From positions 1-55,089 of the forward strand of contig CALZHT010000006.1 in NCBI GenBank assembly GCA_945787445.1: 55,089 bases of DNA, read 5' to 3'. Below are positions 6,982-15,163 of the stretch, one piece after another. A program made the translations under genes and the position numbers. Under the pieces are notes generated by a model that searched no databases, had not been told where the DNA came from, and worked only from the letters and a program-made list of their open reading frames with translations. The DNA comes from an uncultured Desulfobulbaceae bacterium (lineage in GTDB: Bacteria; Desulfobacterota; Desulfobulbia; Desulfobulbales; CALZHT01). The first letter of the stretch is position 1; each line of letters starts with the position of its first letter.

Positions 6982-9723
6982 TCAGTTTGTTTTCCGCCCG
7001 GCAAAAACCAAAAAGAGTTGACCAACGATTAAGGGCAGCAGGCTCATGCCGAGGATTAATGCCCAGCCGTGCAAGCCTGGATCCACTACCTTGAGCACCC
7101 TGGCCAGTACCGGAACATGAATAATGGCTACCAGTAATCCGGAACAAAGCATGATAGCCCCCCAGATAAAGGGGTTTTTGACGATGGCGTTGTTCAATAA
7201 CCCTGTGGTGCGATCTCGCATATTAAAAACATGCCAGAGCTGGGCAAAGGCGAGGGTAAGAAAGGAGATGGTAACCGCCTGTTTTTCATTCATATCCAGC
7301 CATAGGAGAGCCAGGGCCAAGGCTCCCAGAACCGAAACGGTTATGGCGAAGCCATAACCTGCAACGCCAAACCAATGACGGGTCGACATGATGGGCTCGT
7401 TGCGGTTTCTTGGCGGTTGGGTCATGATTGCCGCGCTTGACTCACCGGCGGCCAGGGCCAAGGCAGGGAAAACGTCGGTGACAATATTGAGAAACAGAAT
7501 CTGTAGAGGCAATATGGGTAAGGGAGCATTCACAAGCGAGGCCAGGGTTACGGTCATTATCTCACTGATGTTGCATGAGAGGAGATAGATAACAAAGTTT
7601 CGTATATTTTTAAAAATGATCCGCCCCTGCTCCACTGCATGAATAATGGATGAAAAGGAGTCGTCCTTGAGGATCATGTCAGCTGCTTCACGGGCCACCT
7701 GGGTTCCCCTCTTGCCCATGGCAATGCCGATGTCAGCTTTCTTCAGGGCGGGGGCGTCATTGACCCCGTCGCCGGTCATGGCTACAATGGCCCCGTTTTC
7801 ACGGTGGATCGAGATCAAATCAAGTTTTTGTTTAGGACTCACTCTGGCAAAGAGATTAGTTTGCAGAAGCGTGTGTTTCTCGCTTTCAGATAAATTCTCC
7901 GGACTTTTCAGGTCACGGCCGTGGATAACAGGCGCGTTTGCATCATCAACCAGCCCAACGGCCGACCCGATGGCGCGGGCGGTCACCGGCTGGTCCCCGG
8001 TGGCCATGATAATTCTGATTCCGGCACTTCGGCAGAGCTGGACAGATTGTTTCACATCCTCGCGCGGCGGATCGGTGAGGCCGATCAATCCTATAAACAC
8101 AAGGTTTTCGTAGGGGAGCGCGTTTAAATCAGCTACGGTTTTTGTCGCCAGACCAAGGACGCGCAGACCGGCGGCGGCCAGAGCATCATTTTTTTCGCGC
8201 CAGAAGTCTTTAGCGCGCTCAGAGAGCATTTCTTCGCCTTCTTCTGTTAGAATTGCGCTGCTGTCGTGCAGTACGTCTTCAGGCGCCCCTTTTACTGCGA
8301 CTATATAATCATCGGTTGCAGCCTTATGAAAGGTCGCCATCATTTTGCTTTCCGAGTCAAATGCGTCTTCGCGCATCTCGGGCATGCTTTGCTCAAGGCC
8401 CTGCCGGGTCAAACCACAGCGGGCCGCGATAGCGAGCAGTGCGATTTCCAAGGGATCACCTATGGTTTTTCCCGGAGATTTTTTTTCTCCCAAGTCCATG
8501 GAAGCATTGTTGCACAGCACCCCAACCTGGAGAGCTTTCGTTAGGCGAGGGTGATCAGATGGCAAATAGGCACGGCCGTCATGGAGAAATACTTCTGAAT
8601 CTTCTTCTGCTCTCGCATTGATTTCGATATCTCGACCAGCCAACAACAGAGTGGTTGCCGTCAGCCGGTTTTCCGTCAGGGTGCCGGTCTTATCAGTGCA
8701 GATGACACTGGTCGCCCCCAAGGTTTCAACCGCTGCCAATTCTTTTATCAAGGCGTTTCGCCGGGCCATTCGCCAAACACCTCTTGCTAAGGCTATTGTG
8801 GCAACAATGGGCAGACCTTCCGGAATAGAGGCAACTGCAAGGGCAATAGCGGTTTCGATCATTAAAATGAAATCTTTTCCACTTAATATGCCGGTTACAG
8901 CAACGAGAAGTGCAAGACCAAGACAAACCCAGATGAGCCAATGGCCAAGTTGGTTCAACCGTTTTTCCAGCGGGGTGGACTCTTCTTCGGTTTCCTCAAC
9001 CAGGGAAGAGATTTTGCCAAGCTCGGTATGCATGCCGGTATTCACAACTACCGCCTCACCGGAGCCGCGGGTTAAGGCGGTACCTTTAAAAAGCATGTTG
9101 GTACGATCTGCAAGGGTTGCGCTTTCACCAATAGGATCAACCGCTTTACTCACCGGCAGGGATTCACCGGTTAGTACCGATTCATCAGCCTGCAATTTCG
9201 AAGCGTTTATAAGACGAAGATCAGCAGTGACAATATCGCCGCCTTCAAGGATGACAATATCACCCGGCACCAAGGCTTTGGCCGGTATTTCTTTCACTAT
9301 GCCGCTGCGACGGACCCTGGAGCTGACTGTGCCAAGCTTTCGCAGTGCCTCAATGGAGCGGGCCCCTTTCAATTCGGTCAGGAAACCGATAAGCGCGTTT
9401 ATAAGAATGACGACGGCAATGGCAGCTGCCTCAACATAATCACCGAAGACCAACGATAACAGGGCAGCCGCCACCAGGAAGAAAACAATCAGATTTTTAA
9501 ATTGATTGAGGAGAATGGCCCAGGTGTTTTTGGGTTTCACCTCTCGAAGAGCATTGGCGCCAAAGGTATTGCGCCTTTTTCGCACCTCGCCGCTTTTGAG
9601 GCCTTTTTCTGCGGAAACATCGAGGGAGTGCAATATTTCCTGGCTGGGGAGTGACCATGGGCTTGGCGGAAGATCTGCAAGGGGCTTTCGGCTCCTAGGA
9701 ATGCGAAGCGTCAATGTTTTCAT
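6982..9723 (-). CDS. P-type cation-transporting ATPase, probable Ca2+ pump (P2A-like)
   Basis: A 913-residue membrane pump of full family length. TGES (185-188) is the actuator-domain dephosphorylation loop and D344 in CTDKTGTLT is the phosphorylated Asp. TGDQPVTA and TGDGVNDAPAL are the hinge and phosphate-site motifs. PEGLP (301-305) in TM4, CNISE in TM5 and LNIVTD in TM6 match the Ca2+-coordinating residues of SERCA/PMR1 pumps, so Ca2+ export is the best guess; Mn2+ is possible. An N-terminal cation-ATPase domain and a C-terminal helical domain are both present. It lies 8 bp after the small PHA-type gene and 46 bp before the beta-CASP gene, suggesting one transcript. Confidence 0.92.
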   Translation of the reverse strand: MKTLTLRIPRSRKPLADLPPSPWSLPSQEILHSLDVSAEKGLKSGEVRKRRNTFGANALREVKPKNTWAILLNQFKNLIVFFLVAAALLSLVFGDYVEAAAIAVVILINALIGFLTELKGARSIEALRKLGTVSSRVRRSGIVKEIPAKALVPGDIVILEGGDIVTADLRLINASKLQADESVLTGESLPVSKAVDPIGESATLADRTNMLFKGTALTRGSGEAVVVNTGMHTELGKISSLVEETEEESTPLEKRLNQLGHWLIWVCLGLALLVAVTGILSGKDFILMIETAIALAVASIPEGLPIVATIALARGVWRMARRNALIKELAAVETLGATSVICTDKTGTLTENRLTATTLLLAGRDIEINARAEEDSEVFLHDGRAYLPSDHPRLTKALQVGVLCNNASMDLGEKKSPGKTIGDPLEIALLAIAARCGLTRQGLEQSMPEMREDAFDSESKMMATFHKAATDDYIVAVKGAPEDVLHDSSAILTEEGEEMLSERAKDFWREKNDALAAAGLRVLGLATKTVADLNALPYENLVFIGLIGLTDPPREDVKQSVQLCRSAGIRIIMATGDQPVTARAIGSAVGLVDDANAPVIHGRDLKSPENLSESEKHTLLQTNLFARVSPKQKLDLISIHRENGAIVAMTGDGVNDAPALKKADIGIAMGKRGTQVAREAADMILKDDSFSSIIHAVEQGRIIFKNIRNFVIYLLSCNISEIMTVTLASLVNAPLPILPLQILFLNIVTDVFPALALAAGESSAAIMTQPPRNRNEPIMSTRHWFGVAGYGFAITVSVLGALALALLWLDMNEKQAVTISFLTLAFAQLWHVFNMRDRTTGLLNNAIVKNPFIWGAIMLCSGLLVAIIHVPVLARVLKVVDPGLHGWALILGMSLLPLIVGQLFLVFAGRKTN

Positions 9724-12965: not shown

Positions 12966-13201
12966 TTTTATTGTATCCGCGGTAATTGCACAAGTATGAA
13001 CATGACCAACCCTTTACTTACAAAGGAAATGTAACTCTTACCATATCTCCTCATACCCTGTCAATGTATTGCATCCAATTCATGTTGGCAAAGGAGATGC
13101 AAATGCCTCTCTCGCGGGTCTGGATGGTTAGAATGTAAAGAGGGGGACAGAAATATATCAAATTATCCCTATCCCCCAAAGATTGATAGTCCCCCATGCA
13201 A

Positions 13202-13324
13202 TTATTTGGATTTTTTCGGCGCTTCTTTTTCCTTCCTTACCATCTTGGTCGGCACAGTCGCCTTGATCTCCTTTTGTTTCAGAGGAAGACACCCACACCC
13301 ACAAGGATCTTTTTGCTTTGTCAT
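13202..13324 (-). CDS. 40-residue Cys-rich peptide with CGCGC motif, ArsR-linked
   Basis: A short frame beginning MTKQKDPCGCGCLPLKQKEI and ending KKSK. It is preceded by a near-perfect Shine-Dalgarno (AAGGAGGTGAT at 13331-13341 on the minus strand), strong evidence that it is translated. P-C-G-C-G-C-L gives three cysteines in five residues, a likely thiol metal site; the rest is Lys/Glu-rich and probably disordered. It lies 63 bp downstream of the ArsR-type regulator on the same strand and has its own copy of that gene's palindrome (13345-13368). A small metal-binding or metal-delivery peptide under ArsR control is inferred. I do not recognise a named family. Confidence 0.7.
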   Translation of the reverse strand: MTKQKDPCGCGCLPLKQKEIKATVPTKMVRKEKEAPKKSK

Positions 13325-13344
13325 TTCTATCACCTCCTTTTTGT

Positions 13345-13368
13345 TTAAGTGTTTTCGCAATAACTTAA
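13345..13368. promoter_or_regulatory. Predicted ArsR operator, copy 2 (before Cys peptide)
   Basis: Perfect half-sites TTAAGT (13345-13350) and ACTTAA (13363-13368), separated by 12 bp containing TTTTCGCAAT. The site lies just upstream of the ribosome binding site of the 40-residue peptide gene. The same arrangement occurs before the ArsR gene at 13811-13834, with 21 of 24 positions identical. Confidence 0.75.
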
Positions 13369-13387
13369 TTAAATTGGCAAAAAAAAT

Positions 13388-13798
13388 TTACTTTTCTGCT
13401 TCTATTTCTTTTACCCTTTCCCGGACAACATTGAGCTCTTTTTGCAGCTCTACCTCATATTTTTTAAGTGCCGCCAAGGTTGCCTTGCTTCGTTCTTTTT
13501 CCTTTAATTTGCCTGTACCCTGGCACCCACATGTGCAAACTTCATTCAAAATTTTCCGACAACTTTCCATGGCCTTTTCATTTATTGAATACGGAATCCA
13601 ATACCCCTGCCGTTCACTTCTTACCAAACCTGCCTGTTTGAGTATTTTAAGATGTTGCGATATCGCCGGGGGTGTTAAGCCAAGGTTACTTGATATTTCT
13701 TTTACTCCGAGAGGCCCTTTGGCTTTGAGAAGTTCAATAATATTTACACGTGTTTCAACGCTTAATACTTTAAATATATCGGCCGGGTCAATGATCAT
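13388..13798 (-). CDS. ArsR/SmtB-family winged-helix regulator with C-terminal CxCxC and coiled coil
   Basis: A 136-residue repressor-type protein. The winged helix spans about residues 5-80 (FKVLSVETRVNIIELLKAKG; recognition helix around LTPPAISQHLKILKQAGLV). It is followed by C-T-C-G-C near residue 88-92 and then a charged coiled coil to the end (KATLAALKKYEVELQKELN). Typical ArsR sensors carry Cys in the alpha-3 helix (ELCVCD); that is absent here, so the CTCGC segment, with another Cys at about 80, is the likely metal or thiol sensor. Its own promoter has the palindrome at 13810-13835, so autoregulation is likely. The 40-residue Cys peptide downstream is the apparent target. Confidence 0.85.
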   Translation of the reverse strand: MIIDPADIFKVLSVETRVNIIELLKAKGPLGVKEISSNLGLTPPAISQHLKILKQAGLVRSERQGYWIPYSINEKAMESCRKILNEVCTCGCQGTGKLKEKERSKATLAALKKYEVELQKELNVVRERVKEIEAEK

Positions 13799-13809
13799 AA
13801 GGCAAACCT

Positions 13810-13835
13810 ATTAAGTAATTTCGCAATGACTTAAT
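13810..13835. promoter_or_regulatory. Predicted ArsR operator, copy 1 (before arsR-type gene)
   Basis: Half-sites ATTAAGT (13810-13816) and ACTTAAT (13829-13835) form a perfect 7-bp inverted repeat around AATTTCGCAATG. It lies 12 bp upstream of the regulator's ATG, where it would block transcription or initiation. Shared with 13345-13368 at identical spacing. Confidence 0.78.
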
Positions 13836-13978
13836 CATAGATCACTGAATCGATTCTGTCAAACTTTTTTTGGGATAGATTTTTGGAGGATTCAGGGGTA
13901 TATCGTAACTATATGAAATTGAAACAATTTATTTTCTTTTAGCGTTAGCTGCCAGTAGTCTTAGACTTTAGACTGGGA

Positions 13979-14850: not shown

Positions 14851-15163
14851 CTAATCATCCAGGTATTTGCTCAATTTGCTGAGCAGGGTCTTGCGGGTGA
14901 TATTGAGGCGTCGTGATGATTACCGGTATGGCGGGATTGTATTCATGGATGTATCCAAGAGCCTCCATACCGTCCATTTCCGTCATGCGCACATCCATGA
15001 AGATGGCATCATAAGGCTTTTTATGTACTGCTTCGACAGCATTAGTGCCGTCGTCAGCTTCTTCAGCTTTCCACCCCCATTCTCTGATCATAGAGGATAA
15101 CATATAGCGATGGGTCGCATCGTCGTCCACTATGAGAACGCTGACAACCTTACCTTTTTTTAT
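14851..15163 (-). pseudogene. Decayed NtrC-type response regulator: receiver fused out of frame to Fis-type helix-turn-helix
   Basis: On the minus strand the frame VSVLIVDDDATHRYMLSS to NPAIPVIIT is a receiver domain with the acidic pocket (DDD) and phospho-acceptor Asp in AIFMDVRM. It then runs into nonsense. From about 14910 a different frame reads RRLNITRKTLLSKLSKYLDD and stops at 14851-14853, a classic Fis-type C-terminus of sigma-54 activators. The end of the receiver (conserved Lys) and the whole AAA+ domain are missing. This is a roughly 1-kb internal deletion with a frame change at the junction. No good start codon is visible either; GTG 15130 is the only near option. The product is presumably non-functional. 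Confidence 0.75.

Follow-up and report, generated by a model that had tools for sequence, protein, structure and literature searches.

A conserved gene pair of an ArsR-family regulator and a minimal cysteine peptide with a duplicated predicted operator suggests a small sensor-plus-buffer circuit in anaerobic bacteria

Introduction

Can an ArsR-type regulator and a peptide of only 40 residues, each preceded by a copy of the same inverted repeat, form a complete metal-response circuit? The question is raised by a stretch of 55,089 nucleotides from an uncultured Desulfobulbaceae bacterium (the window), in which a sequence-only reading had recognised the two frames and proposed such a miniature circuit. 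Here we analyze the anatomy of the locus, its recurrence in other genomes and the readings that compete for it.

Results

Layout of the two-gene unit

The elements of the locus are the following (window coordinates):

13834-13862, minus strand: P1, the promoter of the pair, TTGACA-17-TATGAT, matching 11 of 12 consensus positions
13811-13834, no strand: op1, operator predicted by pattern search, a 24-bp inverted repeat over the end of the P1 -10 element and the start region
13388-13798, minus strand: ArsR/SmtB-family regulator of 136 aa, with CTCGC as residues 88-92 and a C-terminal helix at 108-135 (Pfam HTH_5, NF033788, AlphaFold2 model)
13379-13386, minus strand: T8 tract (as read on this strand), directly after the regulator stop codon, ending 10 bp before op2 and conserved across loci
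13345-13368, no strand: op2, second 24-bp predicted operator, identical to op1 at 21 of 24 bases (pattern search, conservation)
13329-13340, minus strand: perfect Shine-Dalgarno sequence AAAGGAGGTGAT of the peptide, conserved in relatives
13202-13324, minus strand: 40-aa peptide MTKQKDPCGCGCLPLKQKEIKATVPTKMVRKEKEAPKKSK (codons 13205-13324) and its stop codon (13202-13204), with relatives beside the same ArsR and a dN/dS of 0.23
13142-13177, minus strand: intrinsic terminator with a 14-bp stem that closes the pair (sequence and fold)

With a strong promoter running into op1 and a terminator after the peptide, arsR and the peptide gene look like one closed unit of approximately 0.7 kb. The TTGACA and -10 elements of P1 are found at a constant distance from op1 across 42 loci. 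Elsewhere in the window, at 14855-15130 on the minus strand, there is a truncated response-regulator receiver frame with a GTG start.

The regulator is assigned to its family by Pfam HTH_5 (E=2.3e-15) and by NF033788 (87.5 bits, cut-off 55), and its AlphaFold2 model (mean pLDDT 72, 13 sequences) has the winged-helix order H-H-H-H-E-E-H. As is typical of the ArsR family, a conserved inverted repeat, op1, lies at the regulator's own promoter over the -10/start region. Cysteines C88, C90, and C92 lie within a few residues of one another in the same chain, after helix 5, which is the AfArsR-type arrangement; in the model this CTCGC segment (residues 87-96) has pLDDT values below 50 and follows a helix at 74-87. 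The closely spaced cysteine clusters previously noted in both proteins are indeed present, as CTCGC at residues 88-92 of ArsR and as CGCGC at residues 8-12 of the peptide, which contains three cysteines in total.

The operator is confined to the arsR-peptide locus

The pattern TTAAGT-N12-ACTTAA was confirmed at both positions where it had been reported, 13345-13368 and 13811-13834, with 21 of 24 bases identical. These are the only two exact matches in the window and in the whole 4.46-Mb genome, one before arsR and one before the 40-codon ORF, while a reversed control pattern gave 1 match per strand of the whole genome. When the clade consensus was searched with up to 3 mismatches in 7 genomes (the window genome and six relatives), sites were found only at the arsR-peptide locus, and control matches in the same search amounted to 1 in total. 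Conservation in the relatives at both genes bears out the claim that the duplicated operator is shared by regulator and peptide. In one relative (L018) the peptide has lost its start, and op2 is degraded in its right half.

Because the operator is confined to this locus in the seven genomes, the predicted regulon consists of arsR and the peptide gene. No transporter, enzyme or other gene family is common to most neighbourhoods, and together with the restricted operator sites this makes the peptide appear as the main or only output. An efflux operon was rejected as there is no metal transporter among the conserved neighbours, and a RiPP precursor as there is no modifying enzyme common to them; the P-type ATPase at 6982-9723 in the window has no operator match adjoining it. 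An acyl-CoA dehydrogenase-like gene (named from its sequence, not by a family search) follows op2 in L034, L038, L025, and L116, and in L138 such a frame is reduced to an 86-aa fragment before the peptide. In L136 the second operator is followed by a gene that starts like an LmbE-type deacetylase (MQDLVEFLSPIMVIAAHPDDAEIQCGG); enzymes of thiol biosynthesis are among the members of this family.

The peptide is under purifying selection and recurs beside CxCxC-type ArsR

The sequence-only reading had described a small peptide with an almost perfect Shine-Dalgarno sequence, and the 40-codon ORF (MTKQKDPCGCGCLPLKQK...) does follow a perfect AAAGGAGGTGAT. Among six relatives of the window clade the differences on codon positions 1, 2, and 3 numbered 147, 99, and 215, and dN/dS was approximately 0.23. 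The peptide evolves as a real protein under purifying selection.

When 58 genomes were searched with the 40-aa peptide, three good relatives (E<1e-5) were obtained, each directly downstream of an ArsR with 79-87% identity and with both operators present. To widen the comparison, 49 distinct CxCxC-type ArsR genes were collected by searching the order and phylum with profiles and by one genome-contig scan. A cysteine peptide preceded by a ribosome site follows 35 of these 49 genes, compared with 2 of 65 ArsR genes that lack CxCxC (Fisher 1e-15, a p-value that overstates independence since the loci are related), and the two exceptions among the 65 carry CSCGW and CSC. The CGCGC-type small frames that were to be expected beside CxCxC ArsR homologues, if the original proposal was right, are therefore present. 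A peptide profile run against 395 genomes gave nine matches with E<5e-4, all nine beside a CxCxC ArsR.

The hosts are mostly Desulfobulbaceae, Desulfobacterales, Syntrophobacterales, and Desulfobaccales, and also include Brocadiales, Desantisbacteria, Spirochaetes, and Nitrospinota. The peptide is absent at some CxCxC ArsR loci (L023, L025, L038, L116). Viral carriage was rejected, as viral contigs contained only two distant ArsR matches, and all matches in a plasmid search were below 60% identity. A distant ArsR from Cloacimonadota (L050) is followed by a T tract, a ribosome site and a Cys-rich small frame starting MCCEP, a layout indicating that the arrangement may extend beyond the CxCxC group.

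Short forms of the peptide are Lys-rich, M[AT]EKK..CGCGC[IV]P..K, and contain one to three CxCxC units: a second unit is seen in some relatives (e.g. CGCGCVPRQQICGCGCVP) and up to three in several, and the L024 peptide has nine cysteines versus three in the window peptide. The long form, MCxPGG..CGCG..RRF..EE..LE.Y..QLKKELA.VE.RI, has approximately 60-90 aa with a C-terminal helix and occurs in 11 loci; L118 and L127 contain both forms. On ArsR tails a profile of the peptide tails reached a median score of 14.2 bits, whereas 2000 shuffles had a median of -0.8 and did not exceed 11.0, and reversed tails peaked at 4.0. This likeness may reflect shared descent or only coiled-coil similarity. In L134 a Met- and Cys-rich peptide, MADEKVDACKERMIEMMKD...CGCCCTP, is found 91 nt after the stop codon of an arsR whose product has CSC, not CxCxC; it is perhaps a copper variant.

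A T tract at fixed distance from op2

In an alignment of 45 loci from several phyla, anchored at op2, each position from -16 to -11 is occupied by T in 93-100% of the loci. In every locus having both op2 and a tract of at least six T, a T6-9 tract ends 9-10 bp upstream of op2 (window 13379-13386, L012, L014, and L109-L136), and unlike this spacing the distance from the arsR stop codon to the tract varies. The T-tract element before op2 is a new finding of this analysis. An intrinsic terminator at the tract was rejected with a hairpin in only 4 of 44 loci, and so was an ordinary sigma-70 promoter at op2 (P2), which scores 1.5 versus 3.3 for shuffles, with P1 at 11.0. A T tract at fixed spacing with neither hairpin nor recognisable promoter points to one of two mechanisms, control by a roadblock or a second promoter of an unusual kind.

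In yeast Pol I transcription a T-rich element is found ahead of a roadblock protein. By roadblock control, ArsR bound to op2 would stall the RNA polymerase coming from P1 with the 3' end of the RNA in the U tract, and the polymerase would be released. Ligand would lift ArsR from op2, and removal of the roadblock would place the peptide under control during elongation as well as initiation. DNA-bound repressors acting as transcription roadblocks are known in bacteria (PMC10310618), and we tentatively suggest, while considering it rather doubtful, that the T6-9 tract and op2 make up a ligand-gated, hairpin-free terminator of this kind. For the unusual promoter, the candidate elements are a TTG where the tract ends and, 17-18 bp downstream, TTAAA[TC] within op2. 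Position 17 of op2 is A in 33 of 45 loci compared with 14 of 43 in op1 (p=2e-4), and there is a preference for T at -3 and A at -2, but in the window clade the -10 element would read GAAAAC or GCAAAC, a poor sequence for this role.

Discussion

Proposed circuit and alternatives

With the anatomy, conservation, coding selection and within-genome operator specificity described above, we consider it probable that the locus is a self-contained two-gene sensor-plus-buffer circuit, resembling SmtB-SmtA but with an unrelated minimal thiolate peptide. The miniature metal-response circuit of the sequence-only reading thereby gains support from the conserved small frame, its purifying selection and the conserved duplicated operator. 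Repression, release of ArsR by ligand, the nature of the ligand, and expression and ligand binding of the peptide are what we infer in the following scheme. A dimer of ArsR would bind op1, over the only strong promoter, and op2, between the genes, and would in this way keep expression of both arsR and the peptide low. The flexible CTCGC cysteines after helix 5 would catch a soft ligand with affinity for thiols (As(III)/Sb(III), Cd/Pb/Hg/Zn or Cu(I)); by analogy it may be a soft metal or metalloid. Ligand-bound ArsR would leave the DNA, and the perfect ribosome site would then allow strong translation of the peptide. With its CGCGC cluster the peptide presumably binds the same metal as ArsR, by which it would buffer the ligand and reset the switch. 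Three cysteines provide at most one site per chain, giving little buffering capacity unless the peptide is abundant or oligomerises.

The obligate adjacency of the two genes, and the resemblance (median 14.2 bits) between the C-terminal helix of the peptide in 11 loci and that of ArsR, would also fit a peptide that is a partner of ArsR and not a buffer, docking on it to hand over or remove ligand or to block dimerisation (co-inducer, anti-repressor, metallochaperone). We find this unlikely, as the window peptide and most short forms do not have that helix, short ArsR proteins without it are still paired with a peptide (L131, L132, L135), and coiled coils easily look alike. Less likely again is a signal of reactive sulfur or redox instead of metal, where the cysteines would form persulfides or disulfides and the peptide would carry or scavenge sulfane sulfur. 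Persulfide-sensing ArsR relatives (BigR/SqrR) are established, many hosts belong to sulfate-reducing lineages, and at L143, where the peptide is lost, a DsrE-like gene (named from sequence alone) takes its place; against this, a CxCxC repeat usually points to a metal site made of thiolates, and some hosts come from lineages in which sulfate reduction is not known (Brocadiales, Spirochaetes, Nitrospinota). A further reading takes the short frame, which has no family match, as an ORF that arose by chance in the space from an autoregulated arsR to its terminator, and gives op2 a role in autoregulation only. This reading is ruled out for practical purposes by the conserved protein sequence and ribosome site, the purifying selection (dN/dS approximately 0.23), the association (35/49 vs 2/65) and the 9/9 profile matches beside ArsR.

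We thus return to the sensor-plus-buffer circuit. The conserved locus probably pairs a sensor with a minimal peptide in a variant of the repressor-metallothionein arrangement, and it contains a composite element of T tract and operator that is so far unexplained. Its occurrence in many anaerobes suggests a minimal, overlooked system for sensing and mopping up a thiol-loving toxic ion. If this is true, we know of hardly any smaller metal-stress system: it would consist of one sensor, one peptide of 27-70 residues and one operator each, in a pair that spans several anaerobic phyla and whose short peptide is without match in the family libraries searched. Should the T-tract/op2 element prove to be a terminator gated by the repressor, bacterial transcription control would gain a further form.

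Comparison with known systems

Pfam gave no family for the window peptide or for five other short forms tested, and none of these thus matched the known metallothionein family of BmtA and SmtA; by this available test the window peptide is not a member of that family. The longer coiled-tail peptides resemble DUF5320 (PF17253) below its gathering score (E=8e-4 and 0.01; best 21.0 bits versus 27, for a relative's peptide), and neither the window peptide nor the five other short forms tested gave a match. Our literature search found no paper on the function of DUF5320, and none combining ArsR, metallothionein and Desulfobacterota.

AfArsR binds As(III) through three closely placed cysteines, and the short segment that contains them changes from disordered to ordered (PMC11212059). 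The window ArsR likewise has three close cysteines per chain in a flexible segment, and alignments put CTCGC near the AfArsR site. It differs from AfArsR (CC-x5-C) in its CxCxC spacing, in its extra C-terminal helix and in having no arsenic efflux genes in the unit.

ArsR/SmtB repressors that control a bacterial metallothionein are known from SmtB-SmtA of Synechococcus, AzuR-NmtA, and BxmR-BmtA. Whereas smtB and smtA form a divergon (PMC8790569), the two window genes follow one another in the same direction, each with an operator of its own; compared with SmtB, CTCGC of the window ArsR follows helix 5, and unlike SmtA the window peptide has no Pfam family and three cysteines instead of a metallothionein count. 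Like SmtB-SmtA, the window pair has a repressor of the ArsR family, inverted repeats as operators close to the start region, and a small Cys protein as the output.
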